A stretch of 64,000 bases of DNA from Ancylobacter defluvii (lineage in GTDB: Bacteria; Pseudomonadota; Alphaproteobacteria; Rhizobiales; Xanthobacteraceae): contig NZ_JAHBGD010000024.1 in assembly GCF_018390605.1 (NCBI RefSeq), positions 434,001 through 498,000 on the forward strand, written 5' to 3'. The position numbers were made by a program, and so were the translations under genes. This document shows, in pieces, positions 25,796-45,088 of the stretch (position 1 is the first letter of the stretch; every line of letters begins with the position of its first letter). The notes below the pieces were generated by a model. That model did not search any database. It was not told the DNA's origin and saw nothing but the letters and a program-made list of their open reading frames with translations.

Positions 25796-26497
25796 TCAGG
25801 CGAGCCCCGCATCCTCGCGGGCGCGACGCAGGGCGCCATGGAGCGCGAAGGCGACACCGAGCACGGTCAGCGCGACGAAGGCGTGCTTGGCGATCTGCGA
25901 CACCTCGGTGAAGGGCGATAGCTGCTGCGCCGCTTCCGCCACCGCCGCCCCGACGGTGCCGAACGTCGCGGCGAGCGCTCCCTTGCCAGCAGTCGTTGCG
26001 GTCGCCGCCGCCTTGGCAGCCGGCTCGACATAGTTGGAGGCGACGAACGCGCCCCTGGCCCACAGCCCCGCCTCCGCGGCGCGGCGATTGGCGAGGCCGG
26101 CAAGCACCCGGCCGCCCGCCTTGTTCCATTTGGCGAGTTCACCCGGCACCGCGGCATGGTTGCCGGCGTTCAGCTTGTTGAGCAGCGTCGAGCCGAGGAA
26201 ATTGCCCGGCCCGACATTGAAGCAGAACGAGACCAGCGCGGCGAACTGGTTGTCGGTGAGCCGCACCGTCACCGCCGCCTCGACCGCCGCCTCATACTGG
26301 GCGAGGTCGGCGCGCAGCATCGCCTCGGCCTGCGCCTCGGAGATCTTCAGCCCCCGTTTGACCGCCGGCGGCCCGGCGGCGTCGGTATGGCCGTAGCCGA
26401 TGGTCCAGACGCCCACCGGGTCCTTATAGGCCGTGAGCCTCCTGCCCTCCCACTGCTTGATGAGGGCGAGGCCCGCCTCGTTCACGTTGCGCGGCAT
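25796..26497 (-). CDS. GH24 lysozyme (endolysin) with a C-terminal membrane segment
   Basis: A 233-residue protein. The N-terminal T4-type lysozyme domain has E17 (QWEG), D26 (YKDPVG) and T32 (WTIGYGHT) at exactly the E-8x-D-5x-T spacing of T4 lysozyme, and should cut peptidoglycan. After about residue 150 an Ala-rich linker leads to one hydrophobic helix (FVALTVLGVAFALHGAL, about 205-221) near the C-terminus. No N-terminal signal is visible. AGGAG eight bases before the ATG sets the start. It ends the GTA-type cluster and is a candidate for cell lysis and particle release. Confidence 0.85.
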   Translation of the reverse strand: MPRNVNEAGLALIKQWEGRRLTAYKDPVGVWTIGYGHTDAAGPPAVKRGLKISEAQAEAMLRADLAQYEAAVEAAVTVRLTDNQFAALVSFCFNVGPGNFLGSTLLNKLNAGNHAAVPGELAKWNKAGGRVLAGLANRRAAEAGLWARGAFVASNYVEPAAKAAATATTAGKGALAATFGTVGAAVAEAAQQLSPFTEVSQIAKHAFVALTVLGVAFALHGALRRAREDAGLA

Positions 26498-26570
26498 GGC
26501 GATCTCCTGATGCACCGGCACAAAAAAGCCGCCCGAAGGGCGGCGGCGAACCAACGACAGGCCGAGGCGG

Positions 26571-27962
26571 TCAGGCGAGCTGCGACACGTCGATCGCCCC
26601 GGACGCCGCCACCGCCAGGTTGGCGAAGCGCGTCGGATGGATGCCGTCGGCGGTGTAGGTGCCGGCGGCGCCGTCCACCTTCCATTTGCCGGAGTTGCGG
26701 CTGCTCTCCAGCACGTCGGCGACGTCGAACACGCCGTGGAGCGGATGCCCGGTTTCGCCGGCCCGCACCGCGCCGGCCGTGCCGATCGCCACCGGCACGC
26801 CGGCGAGGATCGGCGCCTGGTCGCGCAGCCAGTCGTTCAGCTGCTCGCGCACCCCGTCGCCGGAGATCGAGAAGTTGGTCCGCGCCGTCTGGTTCGCCAG
26901 CGTCGCCCAGCTGTCGGTCGAATTGGTCTCCGGCGTGATCGTGGTCTGGAACAGGCGGGAACCGGACCGCGCGATCTGGCCGCCACGTTCCCACAGCGCC
27001 AGCATGTTGGCCTTTGTCGCCTCGAGGCCCGCGCCGCCGGCAATGCTGTTCACCCCGTGCTCGAAGATGATGTTCTTCACATAATGGGCGAGCGACAGAC
27101 GCTTGGTGCAGCTCTTGAGAATGGTCTCGATATCGTCGCCGGCCATGGCGCCGCTGATATAGGCATGGGTGCCGGACACCGCGCGGCCGATCAGCCCGAA
27201 GCCGCCGTCGCTGGCATCGGCAGCGGCGTAGGAATCGCCGGTGCCCTCGACGATGCTGTCGCCGATCCCCAGCACGCCGCCATGGGTCGTGCGGGCGATG
27301 ATGCCGATCGGCCAGGTGCCGACCGAGCGCGTGGCGGGATCGGGCGTGCCGAAGCGCCGCGTCAGGTCGCCGACGCGGGCGGTGGAACCGGTCGAGCCTT
27401 CCGCCGCATAGTCGTTCTGGCGAAAATTGGCGTGGATGTAGCCGGTCGAGCTGAACAGGGCGATGCGTATCTTGATCTCGGTTCCGGCCGGCAGGCTGAT
27501 CGGCAGGAAGTCGGTGCAGATCTCGCCTCCGGCATCCATGAAGCCTTGCGACGCCCCGTTGAACGACATCAGCACCAGCGTGCCGGCGGGATATTCGATC
27601 GACACCGAAACCGCCGTCTGCGCCTGGACTGCGGTCTCGAACTTGTCGCCGTTGCGCATGGCGAACCAGTTGGGGAGGCGCACCGCGAGCTCGGTCACGT
27701 CGGCGCGCAGGGTGTGGCGGTTGCGGGTGAACACGCTGATGCCGCCGTCCGAGGCCTGCGCGGTGGCGATGCGGCAATTGGTGGCGACCTGGCCGTAATA
27801 CTCGCCGCCGCCACGCAGCGGATAGGTGGCGGCATTGGCCGGCAGCGCCCCGGAGAGACTGCGGATCGAGGCCAGCGAATGCCGCCCCCAATAGCCGTCC
27901 ACGTCATGCCCGACGAGATGGGTGAGCGCGCGCTGCGGCGCGAGTTCGATTTCGCCCGACAT
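26571..27962 (-). CDS. SGNH/GDSL-hydrolase-containing tail-associated protein
   Basis: A 463-residue protein. The N-terminal half (1-225) is beta-rich and unlike known enzymes. The C-terminal half is an SGNH hydrolase with the nucleophile S236 in VLGIGDSIVEG and the catalytic pair D439/H442 in ADGIHPTR. Such domains remove acyl groups from polysaccharides. The start overlaps the DUF2793 stop as TGATG, tying it to the GTA cluster, so a role in modifying recipient or producer surface glycans is plausible but inferred. There is no signal peptide, as expected for a virion-type component. Confidence 0.75.
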   Translation of the reverse strand: MSGEIELAPQRALTHLVGHDVDGYWGRHSLASIRSLSGALPANAATYPLRGGGEYYGQVATNCRIATAQASDGGISVFTRNRHTLRADVTELAVRLPNWFAMRNGDKFETAVQAQTAVSVSIEYPAGTLVLMSFNGASQGFMDAGGEICTDFLPISLPAGTEIKIRIALFSSTGYIHANFRQNDYAAEGSTGSTARVGDLTRRFGTPDPATRSVGTWPIGIIARTTHGGVLGIGDSIVEGTGDSYAAADASDGGFGLIGRAVSGTHAYISGAMAGDDIETILKSCTKRLSLAHYVKNIIFEHGVNSIAGGAGLEATKANMLALWERGGQIARSGSRLFQTTITPETNSTDSWATLANQTARTNFSISGDGVREQLNDWLRDQAPILAGVPVAIGTAGAVRAGETGHPLHGVFDVADVLESSRNSGKWKVDGAAGTYTADGIHPTRFANLAVAASGAIDVSQLA

Positions 27963-28783
27963 CAGCTGACCTTTCCTGAAAGTTGCGAATGGGAATCGTC
28001 CGGCGATCGGCCGGCGAGAAGGAAGACGCCCTCGGGCTGGCGGCCGGCGAGCAGCACGCGGCCGGTCGAGGGCTCGGGGGCGGGGCCGCCGGGCGCGGTG
28101 AGCACCAGCGTGCTCAGGGCAAGGCGCACCCGGCCGCCGGTGAAGACACCGCCGATGGCAGAGACGGTGACCGGCGTATCGGCATAGAAGGCCTGCGGGC
28201 CGATGACGCCGATATTGGTGGAGCCGATCGCCCCGCCGAGCCCGTCGCCGAACTTGCCCGCCTCGCCGGTGATCCCGATGCGACAGGCGCTGGCGCCGGT
28301 GATGGCGACGAGAATGCGGCTGGCCACGCCGAGGCAGATCGCCCGGTCGGGGATGACGAGCGCGGTCGTCACCGAAGCGCCGGCAAGGTCGATCTCGGTC
28401 TCGTCCACCCGCAGCGCCACCCCGGCACCGGAGGGCGAGAAGGCCAGCGCGTCGCGCCAGCCGGTGCCGTCGAAGCCGACGCTGCGCCCCTCGGCGACGA
28501 CATGCGCCCGCCATCCGGCACGGGGGGACAGGAACCGCCAGCCGGCGCCGTCATGCAGCGCCACCGTCCCGCCCCGCCCGATCCAGTCGCCGCCGGCGCC
28601 GGCGGCGACGATGTGACGGTCGCCGGGGGACGGCGCCGAAGGCGGCGCGGTGCGCGTGCGGTCGATCACCGCCAGTTGCACCGCGGCATCCAGCAGCAGC
28701 AGGGCCTCGTTGTGGGTCACGTGCTTCTGCGCCTGCGCCGCCGCGAGCAGCGGCAGCGCGAGCAACGGTGTCGTCTCGCTCAT
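27962..28783 (-). CDS. DUF2793 tail protein
   Basis: A 273-residue protein with the DUF2793 signature LLAAAQAQKHVTHNEALLLLDAAVQ (residues about 12-36, here cited in part: AAAQAQKHVTHNEAL). The domain is found in alphaproteobacterial prophages and gene transfer agents downstream of the host-specificity protein and likely attaches fibres to the tail tip. The remainder is beta-rich and glycine-rich. It is coupled to the SGNH-hydrolase gene and lies 39 bases beyond gp15. The function of the domain is not experimentally clear to me. Confidence 0.8.
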   Translation of the reverse strand: MSETTPLLALPLLAAAQAQKHVTHNEALLLLDAAVQLAVIDRTRTAPPSAPSPGDRHIVAAGAGGDWIGRGGTVALHDGAGWRFLSPRAGWRAHVVAEGRSVGFDGTGWRDALAFSPSGAGVALRVDETEIDLAGASVTTALVIPDRAICLGVASRILVAITGASACRIGITGEAGKFGDGLGGAIGSTNIGVIGPQAFYADTPVTVSAIGGVFTGGRVRLALSTLVLTAPGGPAPEPSTGRVLLAGRQPEGVFLLAGRSPDDSHSQLSGKVS

Positions 28784-28822
28784 GATTGTCTCGTGCTGTT
28801 GTGGCGATCAGGCCGGCGGATC

Positions 28823-31800
28823 TCAGGTGGCGAGCCGCGCCAGGAGCGGCGTTCCCGCCCCGACGCTGGCGGAGAGCTGCGCGATGCGCAGGTCGAGGAA
28901 GCTCTGGGCGGCACCGAAATCGGCGATCTCCTCCGCCGCTGGATAAATGAAGGCCGGGAGCGAAACCGCCACCGTCCGCACCACGGTGGTGCCGTCCAGT
29001 ACCTCGACCCGATAGGCTTCGGAGGCTTCGCCGAGCGGCACCTCCACGACGTCCCAGTTGTCGCCCTGCTGCCGGGTGCGGCGGATCCAGCCGATCTCGA
29101 CCCCCGCCGCCGTCCGCCGCGCCCGCGCATGCACCGGGGCAAGCGGCGTCAGCGCCCGGCCGGAGACGGTGGCGTCCAGCTGCGCGACGGCGGGGTCGCC
29201 ATGGTCGCGGTCGGCCCGCCCGGCCCGCAGCGTCAGCGCCCGGCCGACCAGCTCGGTACCCTCGGCCACCCCGGCGAGGTTGCGGTCGAGCCGCACGAAC
29301 AGCGTGCCGGCCGGCCATTCCATCGCCGCCCGCGCCTCGGTGCCGCCCTGCCCGCGCAGAAGCCCGCCAAGCGACCACAGCCGCGTGCCGACCAGTTCGG
29401 CCTCGGTGAACTGGATCACCTCGACGGCGCCGTCGGGGGCCATCAGCGCCGCCAGATTGGCGCCGTTCAGCACCGCCTCCTCGCTTGCCGCCGCCAGCAG
29501 TCCGCCATGCAGTTCGACCGTCAGCGGCGAACTGCGCTGCCACAGCCAGGGCGCCCCCGGCGCCAGCGGCTCGGTCAGCCGCCCCATCACCGAGGGCGCC
29601 GGCAGCGTCGCCACCCGCTCGAAGCTCGCCCCGTCGACGCCGCGCCACACCGCCAGCGCTCCCGGCCAGGGCGAGACGAAGCCGGCGAGCCAGACGAGCG
29701 TCGGCGTCGCCTCGCTCGCGGAAGGCAGCGCCGGCAGAGCGAGCACCGCCATCTCCGGCGGCCCGGCCGCCGCCGGCAGCGCCACGCCCGTCTCGCGCGG
29801 CTCGCGCACCGCCAGCGCGAACACGCCGGGATCGATGCTGCGGCCGGTCACCTCCCGCGCTTCGGTGTCGTCGATCTGCACGATCTCGACCAGCCGCCGC
29901 CGGCCGTCGCGGGTCACGCCGACCACGTCGCCGGGTTCCAGTGCCAGCGTCGAGGGCGGCAGGGCGAAGCGCACGCTCTCGCGTCCCGCCCACACGTCCT
30001 GCAGCCACATTTCGGCGAGGCCGGAGACCAGCCCGTCATGCGTCGCCATGGCGACATCGAGGCTGGTCTCGACCCGCGCCGCCCCGGCGAGCCGGCGCGA
30101 GGCCCCGGTGGAACGCCGGTAATCCGCCATCACATCGACAAAGCCGATGGCCACCGATAGCGGCAGCTCGCTTTCCGAGCCGCGGGTGAAGCTTGGGACC
30201 GGCCGACCCTCGTCGCCGAGGAAATCCTCGTCGGTCAGCTCCGCCTTCACCCGCCCGCCGCGCGGGCGCAACGCCATGCCGTCGCCATTCTCGGTCAGGT
30301 CGAAGCCGAACACACGGGCGAGCGGCTCCAGCGCCGCGCGGGCGCTCATCGGCCGGTCGACGACATAGCCATCGACCACTCCGCGCAGTTGCGAGGCGTC
30401 GAGCCCCGCCACCCCGGCATCGGCGGCGATTGCCGCGCAGGTCTCCGCAAGAGGCGCTGCGCCCAGCCGCCCGGTCAGCCAGTGGCCTGTCAGCCAGTTC
30501 GCCCCATCCGCCCACACATCGGTGGCGAGCGGAAACGCCGGGAACGGCCGCGCGTCCCAGGTCCAGGCATAGAGGCCGCCCGCCTCGATCATCCGCCCGC
30601 CCGGCAGGCCGGCGGCGACCGGATTGACCGCATCGGCGGCGAAGGCGTCGAACGAGGCTTCGAGATGCCGGCGCTGGATCAGGTCGTCGCGCCGGCCGCT
30701 GGAGAACGGCGGCAGGCCGTTTTCCACCGATTTCGGGTCGGGAAACACGCTCGGCCGGTTCGCGCCCTTGTCGACCGCCGCGCAGCCGATCTCGGTGAGC
30801 CGCACCGGCTTCGATCCCGGCACATAGGCGGTCGGGCTCGGGAGCCGCACCCCGCCGACGCGCTCGTGATGGGCACTGGCCCACCAGGCGGCGATGTCTT
30901 TCTGGCGGAACACCCAGGGTTCGCCATAGGCACCGTCGGTGATCGGCAGCCGGGTCTGGCTCGCCCGCCCCGCCTCGTCGGCATAGTACCAGTCGAAGCC
31001 CTCGCCGCCGGCGACATTGGCGGCGAGATAGGCGGTCTCGTAGCCGCTCTCATATTCCGCGGCGTCGAGATGCGCATTGCCGTCGCGCCAGTCGGCGAGC
31101 GGCGCGTACCAGTCGATGCCGATGAAATCGATCGCCGGCGCTGCCCACAGCGGATCAAGCGGAAACCGCACCTCGGCCCCGCCCTCCAGCGCATGCGAAC
31201 CGTATTCCGTCCAGTCGGCGGCATAGGAGACCAGCGTGCCCGCCCCCACCACCGCCTTCACCTCACCGGCCAGCGCCGCATAGGCGTTCGCCGCCGGATA
31301 GAGGCCGGAGCCGGCGCGCACCCGCGTCAGCGCCGCCATTTCCGAGCCGATCAGGATCGCCTCCACCCCGCCGGCCAGCACGCTGAGCTTGGCATAGTGC
31401 AGCGCCATGCGGTTGAGGCCCCATTCGACCGGGCCGGAATAGCTGACCTCGCCGCCGGCAATCGCGAAATGCGCCGCCGCCGCGCTGCCGAACAGCGCCG
31501 CCACCTGCGTCCCTGCCGTCGCGGTGCCGTCCGGCGAGCCGGGCCGCCCCGGCGCCGGATCGCAGCTGATGCGCCCGCGCCAGGGAAAGCCGGGCTGGTC
31601 GGCATTGCCGCTCCACGGGTCGGGCCGACCATTGCCGGCCGGCACGTCCATCATGATGAACGGGTAGAGCGTCACCTTGAGCCCGCGCGCCTTCAGCGCC
31701 TGGATGGCGCGCACCACGCTGCGGTCGGAGGGCGTGCCGCCATAGGCCGGACGCCCCTCATGCGAGCTGACCAGATGCGCATCGGCCCGCACGCGGCCGG

Positions 31801-32737
31801 CCACCCGCCACGCTTCGGTCGTCGTGCCGGCCTTGACGGTCTTGTCCCGCCGCTCGACGCCGGGATGCACCTCGCAGTGGCCCGCCCGCAGGTCGGTGCC
31901 GAACCACGACACCACCAGCGCCACCCGCTCGAGATTGGGACAGCAGGCGAGCAGCCGGTCGAGCGACGCCTCGAAATCGCTGTCGGCGACGGTGACATGG
32001 CGGTTCTCCGCCGCATAGGCGCCCGGACCTCGCGCCTGCACCAGCTCCGTGGTGTCGTAGCCGAATTCGGTGGCGGCGGGGATCATCGTCACCGCCTTGA
32101 GGCGCGGCTCCAGCGCCCCGACCGCCCGCTCCACCTCGACGGAGAGCTGCGGCAGCCGGTTGCCGAAATCGGCCAGCGGCAGCCGCTCGAAGACGAGATA
32201 AGCGAGCCCGCGATAGGCCGGCGCGCTCTCGCCGTGCAGCGCCGCGATCAGCGGGTCGGGCATCTGCTGCTCGCCGCCGAGATAGGTGCGGACGTTCAAC
32301 CCCTGCAGGTCCAGCTCGCGGCCATCGGCCCAGACCCGGCCGATCCAGCTCACCGGTCCCTCGCTGAGCCCGACGGCGAAGCTGGCATAGTAGGTATAGG
32401 TCGTGGTGGTGCTGCTGCCGCCGCCGAGCGAGGATCCCTTGCCGCCTGCCGAGGTGGTTTCGGTCGAGACCACCTCCTCGACATCCGCCGCCCAGATCAG
32501 CTGCGCCGAAAGCCGCGCGCGGCCATAGAGCCGCGGCATCGGCGCCCCGTCGACCGAGGTCATGACGTCGAGATCGGCGAGGCGCGGGCCTTCCACCGAG
32601 CGGCCGGGTGTGAGCAGCGCCCGGTCGATCACCGCGCCGCCGAGCGCGCCGATGGCGCGGCCGGCAATGGCGCCGAGCGGCCCGAACAGCGAGCCGCCCA
32701 GCGCCGCCCCCGCGCCGCCGAGAATAAGTGTCGCCAT
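28823..32737 (-). CDS. GTA gp15-type baseplate/host-specificity protein
   Basis: A 1304-residue megatron-type protein, the largest of the cluster. The N-terminus has a glycine-rich hydrophobic stretch (LGGAGAALGGSLFGPLGA). A GTA TIM-barrel domain (roughly 430-740, with AILIGSEMAAL and FIGIDWYAPL) resembles glycoside hydrolases, followed by phage-tail and C-terminal beta domains. In Rhodobacter GTA the homologue caps the tail and contacts recipient cells. No Shine-Dalgarno sequence is evident before the chosen ATG (MATLILGG). Further upstream sequence is repeat DNA and not coding. Confidence 0.9.
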   Translation of the reverse strand: MATLILGGAGAALGGSLFGPLGAIAGRAIGALGGAVIDRALLTPGRSVEGPRLADLDVMTSVDGAPMPRLYGRARLSAQLIWAADVEEVVSTETTSAGGKGSSLGGGSSTTTTYTYYASFAVGLSEGPVSWIGRVWADGRELDLQGLNVRTYLGGEQQMPDPLIAALHGESAPAYRGLAYLVFERLPLADFGNRLPQLSVEVERAVGALEPRLKAVTMIPAATEFGYDTTELVQARGPGAYAAENRHVTVADSDFEASLDRLLACCPNLERVALVVSWFGTDLRAGHCEVHPGVERRDKTVKAGTTTEAWRVAGRVRADAHLVSSHEGRPAYGGTPSDRSVVRAIQALKARGLKVTLYPFIMMDVPAGNGRPDPWSGNADQPGFPWRGRISCDPAPGRPGSPDGTATAGTQVAALFGSAAAAHFAIAGGEVSYSGPVEWGLNRMALHYAKLSVLAGGVEAILIGSEMAALTRVRAGSGLYPAANAYAALAGEVKAVVGAGTLVSYAADWTEYGSHALEGGAEVRFPLDPLWAAPAIDFIGIDWYAPLADWRDGNAHLDAAEYESGYETAYLAANVAGGEGFDWYYADEAGRASQTRLPITDGAYGEPWVFRQKDIAAWWASAHHERVGGVRLPSPTAYVPGSKPVRLTEIGCAAVDKGANRPSVFPDPKSVENGLPPFSSGRRDDLIQRRHLEASFDAFAADAVNPVAAGLPGGRMIEAGGLYAWTWDARPFPAFPLATDVWADGANWLTGHWLTGRLGAAPLAETCAAIAADAGVAGLDASQLRGVVDGYVVDRPMSARAALEPLARVFGFDLTENGDGMALRPRGGRVKAELTDEDFLGDEGRPVPSFTRGSESELPLSVAIGFVDVMADYRRSTGASRRLAGAARVETSLDVAMATHDGLVSGLAEMWLQDVWAGRESVRFALPPSTLALEPGDVVGVTRDGRRRLVEIVQIDDTEAREVTGRSIDPGVFALAVREPRETGVALPAAAGPPEMAVLALPALPSASEATPTLVWLAGFVSPWPGALAVWRGVDGASFERVATLPAPSVMGRLTEPLAPGAPWLWQRSSPLTVELHGGLLAAASEEAVLNGANLAALMAPDGAVEVIQFTEAELVGTRLWSLGGLLRGQGGTEARAAMEWPAGTLFVRLDRNLAGVAEGTELVGRALTLRAGRADRDHGDPAVAQLDATVSGRALTPLAPVHARARRTAAGVEIGWIRRTRQQGDNWDVVEVPLGEASEAYRVEVLDGTTVVRTVAVSLPAFIYPAAEEIADFGAAQSFLDLRIAQLSASVGAGTPLLARLAT

Positions 32738-32928: not shown

Positions 32929-33049
32929 CTTCCTTTCCTCTCCCCATTGGGGAGCGGTGGCCCGCGAAGCGGGTCGGTGAGGGGAGACAACATTGGGAAG
33001 CGTCGAGCCTCCCTTACCCCACCCCATCCCCACGGGGAGAAGGGGCAGG
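32929..33049. repeat. Dispersed CTCTCCCC repeat, copy 1
   Basis: Contains CCTCTCCCCATTGGGGAG, the GCCCGCGAAGCGGGTCGGTG block and a closing CACGGGGAGAAGGGG. The same blocks recur at 39266, 41837 and 51795. Confidence 0.75.
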
Positions 33050-33063: not shown

Positions 33064-33504
33064 TCACTCCGCTCCCGGAAAGGCGAAGGCGAACGCCAGC
33101 CGGCGCCGCCACCAGGGCGCGAAGGCCACCTCCGCCACCGCCGCGCCGTCATGGGCGTGCACCATGCGGTCCGGCGTCACCAGGATCGCCGCATGCTTGG
33201 CCGGCAGATGCGCTCGCCAGCGGAACAGCAGCACGTCGCCCGGCCGCACGGCCTCCAGCGCCACCGGCACGAGATGCCGGAAGCCGGCCCCGGCCAGTTG
33301 CTCGGCCCGCTTGGCCTCCGCCCAGTCCGGCGCATAGGCCGGCAGCGTCTCGGGCTCGGCGCCGATCGCCGCCCGCCACACCCCGCGCACCAGGCCGAGG
33401 CAGTCGGCCCCCGCGCCCTTGCACGAGGCGCGGTGAAGATAGGGCGTGCCGATCCACGCGCGGGCTTCCTCGATCACCCGCGCCCGCAATTCCATGCCGC
33501 TCAT
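33064..33504 (-). CDS. GTA gp14-type NlpC/P60 peptidase
   Basis: A 146-residue NlpC/P60 cysteine peptidase expected to cut peptidoglycan peptides during particle entry. The nucleophile is C35 in GAGADCLGL and the histidine lies in AKHAAILVT (near residue 108). The start MSGMELRAR is one base beyond the gp13 stop; a second ATG three codons on is possible. Homologues in Rhodobacter GTA are tail-tip peptidases. The gene order gp13-gp14-gp15 is conserved. Confidence 0.9.
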   Translation of the reverse strand: MSGMELRARVIEEARAWIGTPYLHRASCKGAGADCLGLVRGVWRAAIGAEPETLPAYAPDWAEAKRAEQLAGAGFRHLVPVALEAVRPGDVLLFRWRAHLPAKHAAILVTPDRMVHAHDGAAVAEVAFAPWWRRRLAFAFAFPGAE

Positions 33505-33505
33505 G

Positions 33506-34372
33506 TCAGCTGCCCCCCGGCCGCGCGATGCGCACCACCGCGTCATTGCCGGGCATATGCGGCATGCCGCGGAAGTTCGTCGCGTTGGAAAAACGGTCGC
33601 GACAGGTCGAGAGCCGCTTGTCGCAGCCGGCGGTGACGGTAAAGGCCTCACCCGCCGCCAGAGGCTCCGGCGGCCGCTGCCACAGCTCGATCCGCACCGC
33701 GCCGCCAGTCTTTCCGTGCGTCTTCACCTCGGTGGCGAAGCCCTGATTGGCGCCACCGGTGAAGGCGAGCCGCCCCTGGGTGAACCGGCCCGCCGCGAAG
33801 CCGTCGAGCCCGTCCGCGCGGAACAGCCCGGCGCCCTCCACCACCGCCACCACTCCCTCGCCGCGCAAGCCCGGCGCCGCGAGATCGACCCGGCAGCGCG
33901 CATCGCCGAGATCGGCATCGCAGCTCCGCGTGAACAGCCGCCCGCGCACCTGCCCGAGCGCATCGGACAGCGCCCGCAATTCGGCGACGAACACCCCGTT
34001 CTCGCGCCGCACCTCGCCGAGATGGCCCCGCCGCAGCCGGAGGAAGCTGGCCGGGTTCGACCAGTCGACCAGCAACAGCTCCACCGCCGCGCCGTCATAG
34101 AGCCCGGCCGCGAGATCCCGCTCGTCGAGCTGGTCGGCGGCCAACGCCCCCGTGAGTTCGCCGCCGGCGGCGGAAAATCCCAGCGCCGCCGGGTTCTCGC
34201 TGCCGCCGACGCCGGCCGCCGCCAGGAACAGCGTGCCATCCACCGTCAGGTCGCCATCGTGCTCGGTCAGCCCCAGCACCGCGCCGTCGCGGCGGGTGAG
34301 CCGCCAGCAACGCGCCAGCGTCGTCGCGCCGGTGGCCAGCGCGGCGGAAAATTCCGTCGGCAGCGTCCTCAT
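33506..34372 (-). CDS. GTA gp13-type tail hub protein (DUF2163)
   Basis: A 288-residue DUF2163 protein. Paired cysteines in RSCDADLGDARC (near 151-162) and AGCDKRLSTC (near 249-258) are the expected metal or Fe-S cluster ligands; the Rhodobacter GTA hub protein was reported to hold such a cluster. It should form the distal tail hub. Start and gp12 stop overlap as ATGA. Confidence 0.9.
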   Translation of the reverse strand: MRTLPTEFSAALATGATTLARCWRLTRRDGAVLGLTEHDGDLTVDGTLFLAAAGVGGSENPAALGFSAAGGELTGALAADQLDERDLAAGLYDGAAVELLLVDWSNPASFLRLRRGHLGEVRRENGVFVAELRALSDALGQVRGRLFTRSCDADLGDARCRVDLAAPGLRGEGVVAVVEGAGLFRADGLDGFAAGRFTQGRLAFTGGANQGFATEVKTHGKTGGAVRIELWQRPPEPLAAGEAFTVTAGCDKRLSTCRDRFSNATNFRGMPHMPGNDAVVRIARPGGS

Positions 34373-36912: not shown

Positions 36913-37317
36913 TCAATTCGGTTCCGTCACCGCGCGAAACCGGACGATGGCGCGATAGGTGCGCCCGCCGGATTCCCGCCGGATCTCGGCGCCGGTGTGG
37001 CGCAGATTGATCAGCCGCCCCTCGGCGAGCGGCAGCGCCGCGTCGTGCAGCGCCTCCTGCACCAGCGCCGCGATGCGGTGTGCCTCGCCATGCCCGCCCT
37101 GGCGCGACCAGACATGCAGCGTCAGCCGATGCTCCTCGCCGCGTTCGGTGGCGGTGGACCAGTCGAGCACCTGCGCCTCGCCCAGCGTCACATAGGGAAA
37201 GTCCGGCGATGCCGGCGGCACGTCGTGGATGCGCCCACCGCCCAGCGCGGCGGTCAGCGGTGCGTCGGCGAGCAGTGCCTGGTAGAGCGCGGCCCGCAAG
37301 GCCGTCGCCGCGCTCAT
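36913..37317 (-). CDS. GTA gp8 tail terminator-type protein (DUF3168)
   Basis: A 134-residue DUF3168 protein with LRAALYQALLADAPL at the N-terminus and FPYVTLGEAQVLDWST near residues 40-55. It should terminate the tail at the head-tail joint. The start overlaps the 36-residue ORF stop as ATGA; the longer frame upstream overlaps gp7 and is not supported. Confidence 0.9.
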   Translation of the reverse strand: MSAATALRAALYQALLADAPLTAALGGGRIHDVPPASPDFPYVTLGEAQVLDWSTATERGEEHRLTLHVWSRQGGHGEAHRIAALVQEALHDAALPLAEGRLINLRHTGAEIRRESGGRTYRAIVRFRAVTEPN

Positions 37318-37424
37318 CGCCCCGCCTCCCGCCCGATGGCGGCTTCGCGGCGGGCCGCCCGACGGCGCAAGGCGGCGATCAGCCGGGCGAGCGCGCCCGG
37401 CTTCAATGTCGATGCGAAATTCAT
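37314..37424 (-). CDS. 36-residue conserved-looking ORF between gp7 and gp8
   Basis: MNFASTLKPGALARLIAALR followed by an Arg/Ala-rich tail to residue 36. It is very basic (about ten Arg/Lys) and probably helical. A strong GGAGGAG eight bases upstream, an ATGA overlap with the gp7 stop and another ATGA overlap with the gp8 start argue that it is translated. It may be an assembly factor or merely a coupling peptide. No family is recognised. Confidence 0.65.
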   Translation of the reverse strand: MNFASTLKPGALARLIAALRRRAARREAAIGREAGR

Positions 37425-37741
37425 GGTGTCTCCTCCCGGCAGCGGCAGGCGAGCCGCCGTCCGCGCCCATCCGGATCGCTCACCGTCTCGACCAGCAGCA
37501 CCCGCGCGCCGAGCCGCAGCCGGTCGCCCGGCTTCACCGCCGCCGGCGCGCGCAGCGTCACCCGATGCGTCAGCACCGCGCCGGGCCGGTCGGCGATCTC
37601 GGCGGGCGCCGCCTCGCTGCGGATCGCGCCCCACAACTGGTCCACCGCCACGAAGACGACCCCGGCGCCGCCGAGCCCGTCGGGCGTGGCCACCGGCGTC
37701 TCATGGATCAGCCGGTGGCGCAGCGCACCTACCGCGCTCAC
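37421..37741 (-). CDS. GTA gp7 head closure protein
   Basis: A 106-residue phage head-closure (head-tail joining) protein. LRHRLIHETPVATPDGLGG and LWGAIRSEAAPAE are recognisable blocks. It starts with GTG at 37741, overlapping the gp6 stop as GTGA. It should close the portal channel and join head to tail. Confidence 0.88.
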   Translation of the reverse strand: MSAVGALRHRLIHETPVATPDGLGGAGVVFVAVDQLWGAIRSEAAPAEIADRPGAVLTHRVTLRAPAAVKPGDRLRLGARVLLVETVSDPDGRGRRLACRCREETP

Positions 37742-38304
37742 AGCCGCGTCACCCGATAGGGCGCGACCAGCGCGCCGAGCGCGGCGGGGAAGCCGCCAGC
37801 TGTGCCGGTCTCGTCGCGATGCTCGTAGAAATGCGCCAGCACCAGCCGCACCGCCTCGATCAGCGGCGCCGGCACGTCGGCGGCGTCTGGCCCGTGCCCG
37901 GCGGTGATGTCGAGCGCGATGCCGGCCAGCGGCCGCAGCGGCGCCGGCACCGCCGGGCGGTGGACGCGGATCAGCCCCGGCAGCCGCGCGGTATCGATGA
38001 GGAAGCCGGCGAGCGGCACCGCCACCTCGTCGCCATCGCCATCGATCAATGACACCGCGTCGAGCGAGCGCAGCGGCGAGATCGGCAGCGGGACCAGCCC
38101 GCTCGCCGGCCAGGCATCGCGCACCAGCCGCCAGCTCTGGTCGATCAGCGCCCGGCGGGTCAGCGTCTCGACCGTGGCGCGCGCGGCAACGATCATCGAG
38201 GTGATCAGCGCGTCCTCGGCGTCGTGGTCGACGCGCAGGAATTCCTTCGCCTCGGCCAGCGTAAGCGGTTCGCTCGCGGGTCCCGCGAGCAGCAAAGCGG
38301 GCAT
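37738..38304 (-). CDS. GTA gp6 head-tail connector protein
   Basis: A 188-residue gp6-like connector. The ASEPLTLAEAKEFLRVDHD block (residues about 9-27) and HRDETGTAGGFPAALGALV near the C-terminus are typical of the HK97 gp6/SPP1 gp15-type ring protein below the portal. GGGAGGGG precedes the ATG. The serine protease gene diverges from it 117 bases away. Confidence 0.9.
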   Translation of the reverse strand: MPALLLAGPASEPLTLAEAKEFLRVDHDAEDALITSMIVAARATVETLTRRALIDQSWRLVRDAWPASGLVPLPISPLRSLDAVSLIDGDGDEVAVPLAGFLIDTARLPGLIRVHRPAVPAPLRPLAGIALDITAGHGPDAADVPAPLIEAVRLVLAHFYEHRDETGTAGGFPAALGALVAPYRVTRL

Positions 38305-38421: not shown

Positions 38422-39192
38422 ATGCGCGCCGTCCGCATGTGCCTGAAGCGTCCCGTCCCAAAGCGTGCCCTTGGGCTCCGCCTCGCCCTCGCGGCAGTGC
38501 TGGCCGGCGTTGCCGCGCCGGCCTCCGCCATCGTCGGCGGTCGTCCGGCGGACGAGGCGACCAAGGCGCAGACCGCGCTGATCGTCTCGACGCGCGGCGC
38601 CTCCTGCACCGGCGTGGTGATTTCCCCGCAGGTCCTGCTCACCGCCGCCCATTGCGTGCAGCCGGCGGCGAACTATGCGGCGGTGGCGTTCGAGGCCTCC
38701 GGCCCGCGCCTCATCGAGGTCAGCCGGGTCGCGCTGCACCCGCGGTTCGACCCGGCCTCGTTCGAAACCCGCCGGCCGACGCCGGACCTCGCTTTGGTGA
38801 GGCTGTCAGCGCCGCTGCCGGCGAGTTTCCGCCCGGCGCGGCTGTCCGACGAGCCGGCGCTGCCGGCCCGCCGCACCGCCTTCACCCTCGCCGGCTACGG
38901 CGTGGTGAAGGATGGCGACGGCAAGTCGGCCGGCACGCTGCGCGTGGTCAGCCTGCCGAGCATCGGCACCACCGGCGGCATCATGATCCGCCTGTCGGAC
39001 GGGGCGAGCAAAGGCGGCTGCACCGGCGACAGCGGCGGCCCGGTCTTCCTCGACGGCACCGTCGCCGGCATCATCGGCTGGTCGACGGCGGCCGGCGGCG
39101 CCCGCGGCTGCGGCGGCGTCACCGGGGCGACGCTGGTCGGTCCCCAGCGCGCCTGGATCGACGCCACCGCCCGCGCCCTGGAGGCGAACTAG
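38422..39192 (+). CDS. Secreted trypsin-like serine protease inside the GTA cluster
   Basis: A 256-residue S1-family protease and the only plus-strand gene in the cluster. The signal peptide ends at PASA (about residue 36), leaving the mature N-terminus IVGG as in activated trypsins. The triad is H77 (LTAAHC), D122 (PDLALV) and S204 (GDSGGP), with four cysteines placed for disulphides. An alternative ATG lies five codons on. It has no counterpart in the Rhodobacter GTA cluster. It could be unrelated cargo, or a protease that modifies particles or cell-surface proteins. Confidence 0.88.
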   Translation: MRAVRMCLKRPVPKRALGLRLALAAVLAGVAAPASAIVGGRPADEATKAQTALIVSTRGASCTGVVISPQVLLTAAHCVQPAANYAAVAFEASGPRLIEVSRVALHPRFDPASFETRRPTPDLALVRLSAPLPASFRPARLSDEPALPARRTAFTLAGYGVVKDGDGKSAGTLRVVSLPSIGTTGGIMIRLSDGASKGGCTGDSGGPVFLDGTVAGIIGWSTAAGGARGCGGVTGATLVGPQRAWIDATARALEAN

Positions 39193-39329: not shown

Positions 39330-40583
39330 TTACGACGCCGCGAACTTCAGCAGCTTGATGGCGTCGAAGTCCTGCACGCCGCCGCCGACGCGCTTGGTGG
39401 TGTAGAACAGCACATAGGGCTTGGCGGAATACGGGTCGCGCAGCACCCGCACCCCGGCGCGGTCGACCACCAGATAGCCACGGCGGAAATCACCGAACGC
39501 CACCGAGAGGCTGCCGGCGCCAATATTCGGCATGTCCTCCGCCTCATGGACCGGGAAGCCCAGCAGGCTCGGCGGCTGGCCGGGGCCGGTCGGCGGCGCC
39601 CACAGATACTGGCCGTTCTCGTCCTTGAGCTTGCGCACCGCGCCTTGCGTGCGCCGGCTCATCACGAAGCTGCCGTTCTGGCGGTAGCCGGCCTTCAGCG
39701 CGTAGACGAGGTCGACCAGCGGATCCGACGGATTGGCGCTCGGGAAGTCGCCCGCCGCGCCGGTGGCGATGAAGCCGAGCGAGCCCCACGCCCAGGCGCT
39801 CTCGGCCACGCTCGTATAGCTCAGGAAGCCCTTCGGCTTGCCCACGCCGTCGCCGGCGATGAAGGCGGTGCCCTCCTGGCTGGCGAAGGCGGCCTCCACC
39901 TCGATGGCGAGCCATTCGTCGATGTTGACCGCCGCGTCGTCGAGCAGCGTCTGCGTCGCCGCCGGCATGGCATAGAGCTCCATCGCCGGGAAGCTCAGCT
40001 CGTCCAGCACCGGGCTGGCGGTCTGGGCGCGGGCGGCGGTCTCCGCCACCCAGCCGACCGCCGGGCCGGAGGTCATGAACGGCTTCTTGTAGGTGCCGGC
40101 CGAGATGGTGCGCACATCGGCGATGGCGCGGATCGGGGAAAGCGCCGCCAGCCGCTTGCCGATCTCGCGCTCGGTCTCGCTCGGCACGACATAGCCGCCA
40201 TCGGCGGCGACGCCGGCCGACATCGCCTTGGCCTCGATGCGCTTGAGGCCGGCGGCCTCGCCATGGCGCACATAGGCGTCGAAGGCGGCCTTGTGCTCGC
40301 GCGCCGCGAGGTCGGTGACCAGGTCGGCGCGGCCCGAAAGCCCCGGCCGGCGCGCCTTGAGCACCAGCTCGTCGATCAGCGTCTTCTGGCTGTCGAGCGC
40401 GGCATTGATGCGCTCGACCTTGTCATGGGTCACCGCATCGACGCCGCGCCGCTCCAGTTCGCCGAGCCGCTGGTCGTTGGCGTCCTTGAACGCCTCGAAG
40501 GCGCCCATGAACTCCTCGAAGGCGGCGCTCACTTCCGGGCCGCCCGCCGATTTCACTTCGAGGCCGTCATTCTGGTTCTGCAT
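39330..40583 (-). CDS. GTA gp5 major capsid protein (HK97 fold)
   Basis: A 417-residue HK97-type capsid protein. The N-terminal coiled delta/scaffold domain (about 1-100) is presumably cut off by the neighbouring prohead protease. The shell domain has GGYVVPSETEREIG, FPAMELYAMPAATQTLLDDAAVNID and VAFGDFRRGYLVVDR blocks (each quoted in part). Length and position fit GTA gp5. Confidence 0.95.
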   Translation of the reverse strand: MQNQNDGLEVKSAGGPEVSAAFEEFMGAFEAFKDANDQRLGELERRGVDAVTHDKVERINAALDSQKTLIDELVLKARRPGLSGRADLVTDLAAREHKAAFDAYVRHGEAAGLKRIEAKAMSAGVAADGGYVVPSETEREIGKRLAALSPIRAIADVRTISAGTYKKPFMTSGPAVGWVAETAARAQTASPVLDELSFPAMELYAMPAATQTLLDDAAVNIDEWLAIEVEAAFASQEGTAFIAGDGVGKPKGFLSYTSVAESAWAWGSLGFIATGAAGDFPSANPSDPLVDLVYALKAGYRQNGSFVMSRRTQGAVRKLKDENGQYLWAPPTGPGQPPSLLGFPVHEAEDMPNIGAGSLSVAFGDFRRGYLVVDRAGVRVLRDPYSAKPYVLFYTTKRVGGGVQDFDAIKLLKFAAS

Positions 40584-40597: not shown

Positions 40598-41188
40598 TCA
40601 GGGGAGAGAGGGGGCCGGCGCGCCAATGGCGCCGAGCGCGCGCAGACGCCGGGCGCCGCGGCGGATGGTGGCGGCGAGTGGCGAGCGGCAGGCCGCCACA
40701 CGCTTAACCGCGTCGATCCGGGCGTCGGGCTGCATGGGAAAGGTGACGATCGACACCTCCCACAGATCGATGCGGGTGAGGCGGCGCACCCGCGAGCGCG
40801 GATCGGTGCGGCCTTCCACGGCGCGAAAGCCGATGGAGAGCCCGTCGATCGCCCCGGCGCGCATCAGCGCCAGCACCTCGCGGGCCCGGGCGACGTCCGG
40901 CATCAGCCGGCCGCGCACGAACAGCCCGGTGGCATCCTCGCGCAGCTCGGTCCAGATGCCGATCGGCTCGGCGGGATCGTGCTGGAACAGCATGCGCACG
41001 CCGCCGGCGCCGCGCTCGGCCAGCGAACGGGCGAAGGCGCCGCGCACGATCAGGTCGCGGCCGAGATCGACCCGGGCGAACAGGGCGGCATAGCCCTCGA
41101 AGCGGCCATCGGCCTCGATCTCGGCCAGCGCCGGGCCGGCCTTCACCTCGATGGCCGGGCCGGCGGACGGAACACGGGCATGGATCAT
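40598..41188 (-). CDS. GTA gp4 HK97-family prohead protease
   Basis: A 196-residue prohead protease. GRFEGYAALFARVDLGRD, FQHDPAEPIG (candidate catalytic histidine) and AGAIDGLSIGFRAVEG (candidate serine) are the family blocks. It matures the capsid shell. Its ATG overlaps the stop of the 71-residue ORF as ATGA; the frame is open upstream only as antisense to that ORF. Confidence 0.92.
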   Translation of the reverse strand: MIHARVPSAGPAIEVKAGPALAEIEADGRFEGYAALFARVDLGRDLIVRGAFARSLAERGAGGVRMLFQHDPAEPIGIWTELREDATGLFVRGRLMPDVARAREVLALMRAGAIDGLSIGFRAVEGRTDPRSRVRRLTRIDLWEVSIVTFPMQPDARIDAVKRVAACRSPLAATIRRGARRLRALGAIGAPAPSLP

Positions 41189-41400
41189 GCGCTCGCGCCT
41201 CCCTGGCCGGCCTTGCCGCGCTTCTTGCCGGGCCTGCCGGCAGGTGCGGCGGCAGGCGTGCCGACATGGGCGGCGCGGTCGAGCTTGCCGAGGGTGCGGC
41301 CGAAATCGCGGAACACTTTCGGCGCGTCGCCGGCGCGGGTCGGCGCCGGCAGCCGTGGCCGTCCGGGCAGGAAGGCCCGTATGCGGGGGGTGACCTTCAT
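41185..41400 (-). CDS. 71-residue basic ORF between gp3.5 and gp4
   Basis: A 71-residue Arg/Lys/Pro-rich protein (FRDFGRTLGKLDRAAHVG in the middle, GKKRGKAGQGG at the end). GGAGA precedes the ATG. It is coupled by four-base overlaps to both gp3.5 and gp4. No family is recognised. The composition suggests nucleic-acid or acidic-partner binding. Confidence 0.6.
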   Translation of the reverse strand: MKVTPRIRAFLPGRPRLPAPTRAGDAPKVFRDFGRTLGKLDRAAHVGTPAAAPAGRPGKKRGKAGQGGASA

Positions 41401-41597
41401 TCGTCGTCTCCGAACGTGGCGTTGATTTTGGCGTTGAAGCGCGCGATCTCGCGCACGAAGTCGTCGAAGCGCCGCACACTGGCAGCGAGCTCGCGCAGGG
41501 CGACATAGGCAAAGGCGGAGGCGCCGAGCGCCCAGGCGAGCAGCGCCAGATGCGCGAGATCGCCCCGCGCCACGAAGGCGTCGATGAGCTTGTCCAT
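41397..41597 (-). CDS. Small membrane protein in the GTA gp3.5 position
   Basis: A 66-residue protein with one hydrophobic helix (LALLAWALGASAFAYVAL, about residues 17-34) followed by a charged amphipathic tail. Rhodobacter GTA also has a small gene between portal and protease. No strong ribosome site is seen. Function unknown. Confidence 0.65.
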   Translation of the reverse strand: MDKLIDAFVARGDLAHLALLAWALGASAFAYVALRELAASVRRFDDFVREIARFNAKINATFGDDE

Positions 41598-41982: not shown

Positions 41983-43134
41983 TTACCCCTCGCCATACCC
42001 CACGGCCGCGCGTTTCTCGTCATCGGTGAGGAAGCCGGCCTCGCCGACCCGGCGCCACAGCGCCTCTCGCTCAGCGCTCAGCGCCTCGATGGCGTCGAGG
42101 TCCGGCACCAGTTCCAGCACCGCCTCCCCGAAGCCGGGCGCCAGCCAGCGCGCCAGCCCCTCGCCGATGCGCCGCGCCATCGGCAGCACCGCCTGGCGCC
42201 AGAACACCCGGTTGGCCTCGGAATAATTGGCGTAGGTGGCGTCGCCGGGGATACCGAGCAGCATCGGCGGCACCCCGAAGGCCAGCGCGATCTCCCGTGC
42301 CGCGGCGTTGCGCGCCTCGAGGAAGTCCATCTCCTTCGGCGACAGCGACAGCGGCCGCCAGTCGAGCCCGCCTTCCAGCAGCAATGGCCGCCCGGCATTG
42401 GCGGCGCCGGAGAAATTGCTCTCCAGCTCCTCCTTCAGCCGGTCGAACTGCTCGTCGGAGAGGTTGCCCGCCCCGCCATAGACCAGCGCGCCGGAAGGCC
42501 GCGCCGCATTGTCGAGCAGCGCCTTGTTCCAGGCACCGGCGGCATTGTGCAGGTCGAGCGCGGTCTGCGCCGCCTCCAAAGGCGGGGTGCCGTAATGGTC
42601 GTCGAGCGGGTTGAACAGAGCGAGGTGCAGGATCGGCGGCAAAACCCCATCCTGCAGGAAGCGCAGCGTGCGCCCGCCCACCGTGTAGTCATAGGCGTCG
42701 GCCCAGCCATCGGCGCCGGGCACCACCTTCATGCGGTCGGGGCGCAGCACATGCAGCTCGCGCACCCGCCCGTCGAGGCTCACCGCCTCGACATAGGCGT
42801 TGCCGGCAAGCAGCAGATGCCCCGCCACCGCCTCGATGAAGCCGCCGCCGGTGGCCCGCGCATTCGGCCGGGCGATGAGGTCGAGCAGCGGATGCTCGGC
42901 ATGCTCCTGCGCGCCCTCCATCAGCGAGAAGCGCACCTGCGCCGCACCCTCGGCGATCATCCGCACGCAGCGATGGGCGACGGCGTTGCGCAGATAGCCC
43001 TCCCCGGCCAGCGCCGCATAGTCGCGCGGCGTCCAGCGCGGCCGCCCGGCGGAGATGAGCGCCACCAGCGGCGCCGCGCGGGAGGCCTTGACGTCCGGCG
43101 GCGCGGGGGCGCGGGAGAAAAAGGGCAGCTTCAT
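41983..43134 (-). CDS. GTA gp3 portal protein (HK97 family)
   Basis: A 383-residue portal protein. AHRCVRMIAEGAAQVRFSL and LLLAGNAYVEAVS (N-terminal half), GVPPMLLGIPGDATYANYSEAN (quoted in part) and FWRQAVLPMARRI are the conserved wing/stem/crown landmarks. It forms the dodecameric DNA entry channel and terminase docking site. Length is normal. Confidence 0.94.
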   Translation of the reverse strand: MKLPFFSRAPAPPDVKASRAAPLVALISAGRPRWTPRDYAALAGEGYLRNAVAHRCVRMIAEGAAQVRFSLMEGAQEHAEHPLLDLIARPNARATGGGFIEAVAGHLLLAGNAYVEAVSLDGRVRELHVLRPDRMKVVPGADGWADAYDYTVGGRTLRFLQDGVLPPILHLALFNPLDDHYGTPPLEAAQTALDLHNAAGAWNKALLDNAARPSGALVYGGAGNLSDEQFDRLKEELESNFSGAANAGRPLLLEGGLDWRPLSLSPKEMDFLEARNAAAREIALAFGVPPMLLGIPGDATYANYSEANRVFWRQAVLPMARRIGEGLARWLAPGFGEAVLELVPDLDAIEALSAEREALWRRVGEAGFLTDDEKRAAVGYGEG

Positions 43135-43251
43135 GGGAGGGTTCCTGTCGTGAAGCGTCAGCGCCGCCGGCCGGCAGGAGTCGCCTCCCGCCCATGCCGG
43201 CAGCCTCGAAATCGGTCGAATGTCGTGTCGTGCCGAAATGCGCCGCGCGCG

Positions 43252-44622
43252 TTACACCCGCCTTACCCGCGGCGCGTTCTCCTTCGGGCCGAGCGCCAGC
43301 GCGGTGATCGCCCAGACCAGCGCGTCCAGACGGTCCGGCGAGCGCCCGCCGGATAGCCCGTCCGGGCCGAAATCGCACAGCTCGTCCTCCAGCGCCGGAA
43401 AGATCCCGGCATGGCGTACCCGGCCGCGCTCATAGAGCGCCGCCACCGGCTCGGCGCGCAGCCATTTGCCGCGCGTCGCCCGCACCTCGGTCACCGGCAG
43501 CGACGGGTCGATGCCGGCGAGGATGCTGCGCACCATCTCGCCGCCCTGGTTGATCTCCACCACCACCCGGTCGGCGGCGAGCTTGTGGAACAGCGCCACC
43601 GTCCGAGCGCCCCAGGCGCCCGGCGTCAGCCCGTGCCCGCTCTCGTCGGCCAGCACATGCACCATGCCCTCGCCATCGAGCCCGGCGGCGACGATTCCGC
43701 AGGCATCCGCCCCCTTGCGCGAGGAGGCCGGCGGGTCCACCGCCACCACGATGCGCGTCAGCGACGGCGCCGCGTCCTCGCGAGCGGCCTCCAGCGCCGC
43801 CCGGCTCCAGAGCGCGTCGGCGCGATCCTCGATCAGCTCGCCTTCCAGCTCCTGCCGCCCGAGCCGTGTGCCGGCATAGCGCCCGACCACGGCTTCCAGA
43901 AAGGTCGGCGCCAGATGCGCGGCGTTCTCCGCCGTGCCCATGCGGGTGATGGCGGTGGTCGGATCGGCGATCAGCCGCCGCATCAGCGCGGTGGCGCGCG
44001 GCGTCGTCGTCACCATCTGCCGCGGCCGCTCGCCCAGCCGCAGCCCGAATTGCAGCATGTCGAACGCCGCCTCGGCATAGCGCCATTTGGCGAGCTCGTC
44101 GCACCAGGCGGCGTCGAATTGCGGCCCGCGCAGGCTTTCCGGGTCGTCGGCGGAAAACCCCTGCGCGATCGCCCCGTTCGGCCATTCCAGCCGGCGGCGG
44201 GTCGGCTCCCAGCGCGGGCGCTCGTGGCGCGGATGCACCGCCATCAGGCCGGACACCCCCTCCACCATCACCTCGCGCATATCGGCGAAGGTCTCGGCGA
44301 CGAGGGCGATCCGTCCCGCGGGGCGGGTGGAAAATCCCGGCGCGCCGAGCGCCAGCCCGCGCACCCATTCGGCGCCGGCGCGGGTCTTGCCGGCACCGCG
44401 CCCGCCCATCACCAGCCAGGTGGTCCAGTCGCTGCCCCCCTGCGAAAGCTCGGGCGGCAGCTGCGTCGGCCGCGCCAGCAGGCTCCAGCAATGCAGCAGC
44501 CAGTGCGATACGCCGGGGCTGAGCCCGGCGACCGCTGCGTCAAGCCGCCCGCTCCGCCAGCACGCGCTCAAGAGTTTCCGCAAGCTCGCGTCGGTAGGCG
44601 TCGGCGTCACGGAACATGTCAT
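43252..44622 (-). CDS. GTA gp2 terminase large subunit
   Basis: A terminase of about 456 residues. The Walker A motif VMGGRGAGKTRAG is followed by the WPNGAIAQGFSADDPESLRGPQFDAAWCDE region with Walker B, and the nuclease domain begins at IVVAVDPPASS. It packages DNA in head-sized pieces. The start is unsure: ATG at 44622 overlaps gp1 by 83 bases; TTG at 44571 would give 439 residues, closer to the family length. Confidence 0.92.
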   Translation of the reverse strand: MTCSVTPTPTDASLRKLLSACWRSGRLDAAVAGLSPGVSHWLLHCWSLLARPTQLPPELSQGGSDWTTWLVMGGRGAGKTRAGAEWVRGLALGAPGFSTRPAGRIALVAETFADMREVMVEGVSGLMAVHPRHERPRWEPTRRRLEWPNGAIAQGFSADDPESLRGPQFDAAWCDELAKWRYAEAAFDMLQFGLRLGERPRQMVTTTPRATALMRRLIADPTTAITRMGTAENAAHLAPTFLEAVVGRYAGTRLGRQELEGELIEDRADALWSRAALEAAREDAAPSLTRIVVAVDPPASSRKGADACGIVAAGLDGEGMVHVLADESGHGLTPGAWGARTVALFHKLAADRVVVEINQGGEMVRSILAGIDPSLPVTEVRATRGKWLRAEPVAALYERGRVRHAGIFPALEDELCDFGPDGLSGGRSPDRLDALVWAITALALGPKENAPRVRRV

Positions 44623-45088
44623 TGGCGCTGGCGTCCCCGGCATCCTCGTCCTCGTCGCGGGCGATGGCGGCGAGCTCGCGCATCGCGCGCACCAATATGG
44701 CAAGGGTGCGCGCCGCCCTCTCGGCATCCGCGCCGGTGCGGCCGGCATTCAGCCCGGCGCGCGCCACCAGCCGCTCGACGGCGGCGATCTCGCTCTCCAT
44801 GCGCGCCACCAGCCGGGCGATCAGCAGCCGGCGCGACAGCGGCCCGTCCACTTCCGCCGCAGCGGGCGCAGTCTCGGCCGGGGCGACGCCGGGGACCGGC
44901 GCCGCCGTTGTCGCCGCCAGCCGATCCTTGCGCCGCTTCCAGCCCCAGTGGCCGATGCGCACATTCAGCGTCGAGCGGCTGATGCCGAGCAGGTCGGCAA
45001 TGTGCTGGTTCGGCACGCTGGTATGTTCGTAAAGCCGGCGCGCCTCCTCGATCGCCTCGGGCGAGACGTCGCGCTTGGGTATCGTCAT
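44540..45088 (-). CDS. GTA gp1 small terminase-type protein
   Basis: A 182-residue protein with an N-terminal HTH (NQHIADLLGISRSTLNVRIG, about 27-46) followed by WGWKRRKDR and a C-terminal coiled helical half (about 100-180). The Rhodobacter GTA gp1 acts as a small terminase. ATG at 45088 starts MTIPKRDVS. It is first in the long operon, with the promoter and hairpin in its leader. Confidence 0.85.
   Translation of the reverse strand: MTIPKRDVSPEAIEEARRLYEHTSVPNQHIADLLGISRSTLNVRIGHWGWKRRKDRLAATTAAPVPGVAPAETAPAAAEVDGPLSRRLLIARLVARMESEIAAVERLVARAGLNAGRTGADAERAARTLAILVRAMRELAAIARDEDEDAGDASANDMFRDADAYRRELAETLERVLAERAA

Follow-up and report, generated by a model that had tools for sequence, protein, structure and literature searches.

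The gene transfer agents (GTAs) of Rhodobacter capsulatus (RcGTA) and Caulobacter crescentus (CcGTA) are the closest described systems to the locus treated here. The activator of CcGTA is split into GafY, homologous to domain IV of DnaA, and GafZ (as given in the accessible text of PMC9632790). Release of CcGTA uses LypABC and requires the trypsin-like peptidases LypA and LypC; holin-endolysin genes were not found there, according to the accessible text of PMC13236601. The locus in question is located in Ancylobacter defluvii within a 64,000-nucleotide stretch of DNA (hereafter the window; contig C17, positions 434001–498000, of a 5.28 Mb genome). Window positions 25796–45088 (minus strand) hold a GTA cluster with the gene order g1 to g15 of RcGTA, followed by genes for a DUF2793 fibre, an SGNH esterase and a lysozyme. 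The likeness to RcGTA comprises gene content and order as well as the capsid, megatron, hub, tape-measure and rcc01693 families. The locus differs from RcGTA in that its cluster runs on past g15 with fibre and lysozyme, whereas we take them to lie elsewhere in the RcGTA genome, in an antisense protease gene (termed TRYP) between g5 and g6, and in an activator apparently made of two proteins, as in Caulobacter, the first of which resembles DnaA domain IV. Unlike CcGTA, the present cluster includes a lysozyme gene and encloses a gene for a single-domain protease that looks secreted.

The GTA itself is of the known RcGTA type; what is new is that it encloses a conserved gene, antisense and probably of the host, which apparently remains as the GTA around it decays. 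Taken jointly, the data make it likely that the GTA locus was repeatedly eroded around an embedded host protease gene and is probably switched on by a gafYZ-like gene pair. The open full-text literature searched, including the accessible portions of PMC6821227, PMC9836097, PMC6209664, PMC9765227, PMC10783043, PMC3338782 and PMC10883770, yielded no account of a GTA cluster that encloses an S1 protease gene.

TRYP (38422–39192, plus strand) contradicts the preliminary description of this DNA, which had assigned all cluster genes to one strand. The gene codes for 256 amino acids with a signal-peptide-like N terminus and hits to the Trypsin profile only (PF00089, 2.8e-25), and has no second match in its own genome. 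The order g5–TRYP–g6 with TRYP antisense was observed in all 65 loci holding the three genes (31 named loci, 26 from the genus and 8 later ones; some genomes were fetched twice); in two Rhodoplanes loci g5 is 9–10 kb away, with TRYP and g6 still neighbours. An alignment of the region upstream of g6 (28 loci) was too gappy for a promoter call; a short TTGAC-like stretch of the TRYP strand was apparently shared.

Judged by fold family and complete catalytic triad, TRYP is an S1 serine protease. The triad His, Asp and Ser and the Asp preceding the Ser are invariant in all 114 aligned sequences, that of the window included (some genes were fetched twice, leaving 92 after removal; L197, a stop-containing copy of G194, as well as L213 and L214 were left out). 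The likeness to secreted S1 serine proteases extends to an IVGG-like mature end located directly after an A-x-A-type stretch, as signal peptidase would leave it. TRYP would thus probably be exported from the cytoplasm via its signal peptide, and cleavage directly before the IVGG-type end would yield an active enzyme without a zymogen step. Of the 114 predicted mature proteins, 73 begin with I, 24 with M, 11 with L and 6 with V. Besides being lodged within a GTA cluster, TRYP differs from trypsin in the position which we take to be Asp189 in trypsin numbering, occupied by Gly in 113 sequences and by Ala in one; a preference for Arg or Lys is therefore not expected. Several genomes of families f20, f42 and f50 contain tandem TRYP pairs (L202, L212, L204, L205, L206–L210). 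A phage origin of the gene was rejected: a tblastn search (E 1e-3) of 50,697 phage records yielded no relative of TRYP, versus matches of the capsid in 606 of the same records. The three IMG/VR contigs with TRYP (L225–L227) all have GTA genes around it; this database files GTA clusters as viruses (L225–L227, L228 onward).

The distribution of TRYP and capsid was determined in samples of 30 genomes of the genus, 149 of the family and 199 of the order, next to 80 named loci. Capsid-positive genomes of the family number 89 (93 at E 1e-40, less G014, G167, G170 and G178 with <50 % identity). TRYP was detected in 30 of 30 genus genomes and in 125 of 149 family genomes, among them 87 of the 89 with capsid. 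In 82 of these 87 genomes the two genes share a contig and lie no more than 15 kb apart, and in 5 they are on different contigs; in none are they far apart on one contig. The two genomes with capsid but without TRYP have a truncated cluster (G067) or a contig ending in g5 (G148). Conversely, 35 capsid-less genomes retain TRYP (38 less G087, G107 and G128, the TRYP contig of which has g6 onwards). In 18 of these 35, the response regulator lies at most 3 kb from TRYP, where the cluster would have been, and pieces of the GTA still stand beside TRYP in four (G159, G183, G156 and G014). In G023 and G021, nothing but TRYP separates the cluster's two flanks: the regulator pair borders it at one end, the TetR and FMN reductase genes at the other. 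G014 has kept g1, g2, TRYP and g6 to g9; its sole megatron match (44 % identity) belongs to another element. At order level, 134 of the 199 genomes gave a strong capsid match and 30 a TRYP match. The latter comprise 7 of the own family, 6 of family f20 (5 beside g5), 6 of f42 (all beside g5), 5 of f50 (no strong capsid beside TRYP, regulator adjacent in all 5) and 6 of f35, the weak matches of which lie away from g5 and are probably paralogues. Furthermore, 43 of the 80 named loci possess g5 and g6 but no TRYP, including Rhizobium, Neorhizobium and Mesorhizobium records.

Two such clusters bear on the direction of change. A response regulator 76 % identical to that of the window sits downstream of the cluster in L066 (Mesorhizobium) and L056 (other Hyphomicrobiales), both of which are devoid of TRYP. 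These regulator-adjacent clusters suggest that the GTA adjoined the regulator before TRYP arrived, and that loci combining TRYP and regulator without GTA would hence result from deletion. TRYP probably joined the cluster before the Xanthobacteraceae and certain families close to them diverged from their ancestor. Its ratio of non-synonymous to synonymous substitution rates (dN/dS) is 0.08–0.29 in 19 pairs of capsid-less relatives and 0.12–0.43 in 16 GTA-positive Ancylobacter pairs; pairs within a group are non-independent, in some pairs of genus g96 the two sequences may stem from different tandem copies, and a gafZ-like gene is still present in four g50 genomes. TRYP probably has a host function of its own, selected with or without the GTA, so that deletions removing the GTA would be kept only when TRYP is spared.

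A candidate activator pair is located at 60080–60995, 15 kb from the cluster. A Bac_DnaA_C search of the genome gave three matches, one of them in the window at 60735–60917 within an open reading frame (ORF) of 117 amino acids (60642–60995, minus strand; 1.6e-8, 34.9 bits, cut-off 31.5), the product of which is a putative GafY-like protein resembling DnaA domain IV. It is overlapped downstream by an ORF for a GafZ-like DUF6456 protein (60080–60649, minus strand, start uncertain; 2.4e-50); GafZ is presumably a DUF6456 protein. The gafZ-like gene was found in 28 of 30 genus genomes, absent only from G021 and G023; a megatron match is likewise lacking in these two and in no other genome of the genus sample. 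Within the family, it occurs in 86 of 89 capsid-positive versus 20 of 60 capsid-negative genomes (counts ignoring kinship), and three of these 20 carry other GTA genes on the TRYP contig. The Pfam domains, together with a distribution that follows the GTA, support the designation GafYZ-like. The RcGTA-type cluster is inherited with the chromosome and probably activated by this pair; by analogy to its family, it would form particles with a small head and a short tail, which would be filled with host DNA and leave the cell through lysis.

Several observations weigh against repeated erosion of the GTA around a selected host gene. Of the 35 genomes with TRYP but no capsid, 16 lack the response regulator next to TRYP; 8 to 10 kb on each side are covered, or nearly so, in 12 of these and the others end early, so that orthology there rests on the TRYP tree. 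This tree speaks for repeated erosion in that it requires the GTA state to change 12 times or more (92 rows, of which 83 were labelled and 9 unlabelled), but it was calculated by a quick method without bootstrap, and its change count cannot separate loss from gain. Of the 149 family genomes, 22 (many of them incomplete drafts) yielded neither capsid nor TRYP, and 10 of these 22 have a gafZ-like gene; loss thus affects TRYP as well. An internal stop interrupts the top TRYP match in both G190 and G194, and the N-terminal Met of 24 of the 114 sequences is less suited to the usual activation.

As to the role of TRYP, an exported protease with its own host function appears most likely from the sequence comparisons. 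A role in the GTA is a fair rival, because LypA and LypC are needed for CcGTA release. TRYP would then work in the GTA life cycle, e.g., as an envelope protease aiding particle release in the manner of LypA and LypC, and would have been kept for a second use after GTA loss. The constant place between g5 and g6 agrees with such a role, as does the requirement for trypsin-like peptidases in Caulobacter (accessible text of PMC13236601). Conversely, relatives that lack the capsid retain TRYP at low dN/dS but have mostly lost the gafZ-like gene, the 43 named loci with g5 and g6 manage without TRYP, TRYP is oriented antisense to the cluster, and a lysozyme is already present. Moreover, LypABC are, as far as described in the accessible text of PMC13236601, multi-domain proteins without the architecture of TRYP. 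TRYP, with its 256 amino acids and Trypsin hits only, does not show the LypABC-type release architecture (CARD-like domain, ATPase partner), and TRYP as a LypABC homologue was rejected on account of the differing domain make-up. Persistence without GTA and the differing architecture thus speak against an exclusive GTA role, and service in the GTA life cycle is considered unlikely. A similarly unlikely proposal is that TRYP is a selected companion of the GTA, useful for living with, receiving from or surviving GTA-producing kin; lineages ceasing production would lose the gafZ-like activator along with the structural genes but keep TRYP. It is also quite unlikely that TRYP serves the receiving or defending cell by opening the cell surface, or shielding it, in the face of GTA particles or lysing sister cells, and is for this reason retained by non-producers. 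The secreted-looking N terminus and the intact triad retained after loss of production are in accord with this; however, genus g96 keeps TRYP in all 5 genomes sampled, the capsid being absent at E 1e-100 or represented by no more than a 46 % match, and there may be no GTA to receive.

The preliminary description had further favoured a domesticated GTA over a prophage, and this assessment holds. Among the 56 window ORFs scanned with Pfam (further ORFs of the window were not scanned), none codes for an integrase, a recombinase or a replication protein, as it had claimed for integrase and replication genes, and no tRNA was found. Its statement that att-like repeats are lacking is likewise corroborated: the longest exact direct repeat between the flanks 23001–25796 and 45089–48500 measures 17 bp, a length reached by 6 % of 300 random segment pairs of the same size and thus at chance level. 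In comparisons of the window with three close relatives, dN/dS is below 1 for every cluster gene (g9, 0.05–0.08; g5, 0.13–0.18; TRYP, 0.27–0.43; g6, 0.52–0.67). The conserved place and neighbours, dN/dS below 1, no integrase found, the GafY/GafZ-like pair and the gafZ-like gene tracking the megatron together support the view that the cluster is an RcGTA-type GTA, vertically inherited at one chromosomal place under purifying selection. That the cluster is instead an ordinary or decaying prophage, as its phage-like structural genes and lysozyme and its partial or complete loss in some relatives might suggest, is very unlikely given that the cluster keeps one place genus-wide, that every gene is open and shows purifying selection, that the searches above yielded neither an integrase nor an att-like repeat, and that a GafYZ-like pair is present.

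Genes of the cluster were identified by Pfam, NCBIfam and PHROGs profiles, with g1 and g3.5 named by place only; with this qualification, the complete particle cluster in RcGTA order proposed in the preliminary description at 25796–45088 was borne out. All genes in the following are on the minus strand. The small-terminase position is occupied by g1 (44540–45088), which gave sub-cut-off matches to HTH_7 and to an Xre-like helix-turn-helix and has orthologues at the same place in Ancylobacter loci. The head genes comprise those for the large terminase g2 (43252–44622, start candidates 44571 to 44622; Terminase_6N 1.2e-28, Terminase_6C 2.3e-22), the portal g3 (41983–43134; Phage_portal 1.1e-90, portal_HK97), the prohead protease g4 (40598–41188; Peptidase_S78 6.7e-37, proheadase_HK97) and the major capsid protein g5 (39330–40583; Phage_capsid 7.7e-90). 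The two best solved relatives of the latter are RcGTA capsid chains (6tb9, 1e-104), and its identity to named Ancylobacter records is 83 to 94 %. Located between portal and protease are a g3.5-like small ORF (41397–41597) and an extra small ORF (41185–41397), both without family match and conserved in Ancylobacter loci. PF06074 (Mu-type portal) was rejected as the family of the cluster portal; it matched a gene elsewhere in the genome (C25:222812–223822), which points to a separate Mu-like element.

Beyond TRYP follow the genes for the head-tail connector g6 (37738–38304; TIGR02215 4.7e-48), head closure g7 (37421–37741; Phage_HCP 1.4e-16), tail completion g8 (36913–37317; Tail_completion_gp17 3.2e-42), tail tube g9 (36288–36695; Phage_tail_2 7.1e-46), g10 (35893–36276; Phage_TAC_11 (GTA-gp10) 3.8e-28, using a longer start) and the tail assembly chaperone g10.1 (35684–35893, start uncertain; Phage_TAC_6 7.3e-19, TIGR02216 of the rcc01693 family above cut-off). 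The short tape measure g11 (35054–35650) of 198 amino acids reached 186.9 bits with NF058675 RcGTA_tape, below the 220-bit cut-off. Distal tail g12 (34369–35010; DUF2460 1.6e-79, TIGR02217), baseplate hub g13 (33506–34372; PF09931 2e-53, TIGR02218 phage/gene transfer agent baseplate hub), NlpC/P60 peptidase g14 (33064–33504; TIGR02219 8e-56) and megatron g15 (28823–32737; NF048004 GTA_megatron, 1718.9 bits at a cut-off of 800) complete the RcGTA-like set. The g15 gene is apparently shortened in L009/L158 (G017), where the match begins at profile position 370. Second, diverged GTA-like or phage clusters are present in G014 (L154), G018 (L155) and G022 (L157), either in addition to the main cluster or in its place; they carry DUF2793 and a megatron of 36–44 % identity.

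The extension by a DUF2793 protein, an SGNH hydrolase and a lysozyme, likewise previously described, is present after g15. The DUF2793 tail-fibre protein (27962–28765; DUF2793 1.6e-29 with a longer start) has a sole solved match, 8gtc_S (1e-42), labelled Ribonuclease III by its depositors; we take entry 8gtc to be a roseophage baseplate. The SGNH-type esterase (26571–27962) is weak in Pfam (GDSL below cut-off) and strong to phrog_8480 (lysophospholipase L1-like esterase, 9.9e-50), and the phage-type lysozyme (25796–26521, start 26521 or 26554) matches Phage_lysozyme (1.2e-49). DUF2793 is named as the RcGTA tail fibre in the accessible text of PMC10883770. Of the 13 downstream stretches from Ancylobacter (L142–L150, L156, L158–L160), four have the esterase (L146, L158, L159 and L160). 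The stretch from fibre to lysozyme looks variable and is perhaps a receptor module.

The coupling of genes by overlaps of one to four bases, as stated in the preliminary description, applies to five junctions (g3.5/small ORF, small ORF/g4, g6/g7, g12/g13 and DUF2793/SGNH) and fails at six others (g2–g3, g3–g3.5, g5–g6, g7–g8, g8–g9 and g14–g15), which are separated by gaps of 103 to 1013 bp; these figures depend on the chosen start codons, and two junctions were left uncalled. The gap-rich junctions, the embedded antisense protease gene and the gafYZ-like pair had thus been missed. A GC-rich palindrome with a 3-base spacer is present in 5 copies in the window (at 32938, 39276, 41846, 41932 and 51807), versus 0.05 expected. 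Four of these copies are intergenic within the GTA cluster, in three of the gaps larger than 100 bp. A function of the palindromes as att sites was rejected, since copies are found inside the cluster and one outside.

The cluster has a GC content of 0.723, its flanks 0.681 and 0.679. In Ancylobacter loci reaching far enough, the upstream flank consists of genes for FMN reductase, dCTP deaminase and often TetR, and the downstream flank of those for the response regulator and histidine kinase (Pfam; 23638–25694, minus strand, in the window), which adjoin the cluster or TRYP in relatives. About 5 kb past the histidine kinase flank, a gene for a DegP-like protease with trypsin-like and PDZ domains (17132–18682) is located beside cytochrome c maturation genes. 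A gene for a PepN-like peptidase M1 (Pfam) is found at 3239–5887; pepN is among the genes listed as co-evolving with GTAs in the accessible text of PMC10883770.

The persistence of GTAs despite the death of the producer cell is a standing question. In the relatives studied here, a single identifiable site has apparently seen numerous losses of the GTA; remnants of decaying clusters survive, a marker gene under selection of its own lies in the middle, and the activator is lost or kept together with the GTA. With regard to annotation, the host protease may be filed as a part of the GTA, or the GTA as a virus. Comparison of sister species makes the rate of GTA loss, the order of its decay and any benefit of the GTA testable.

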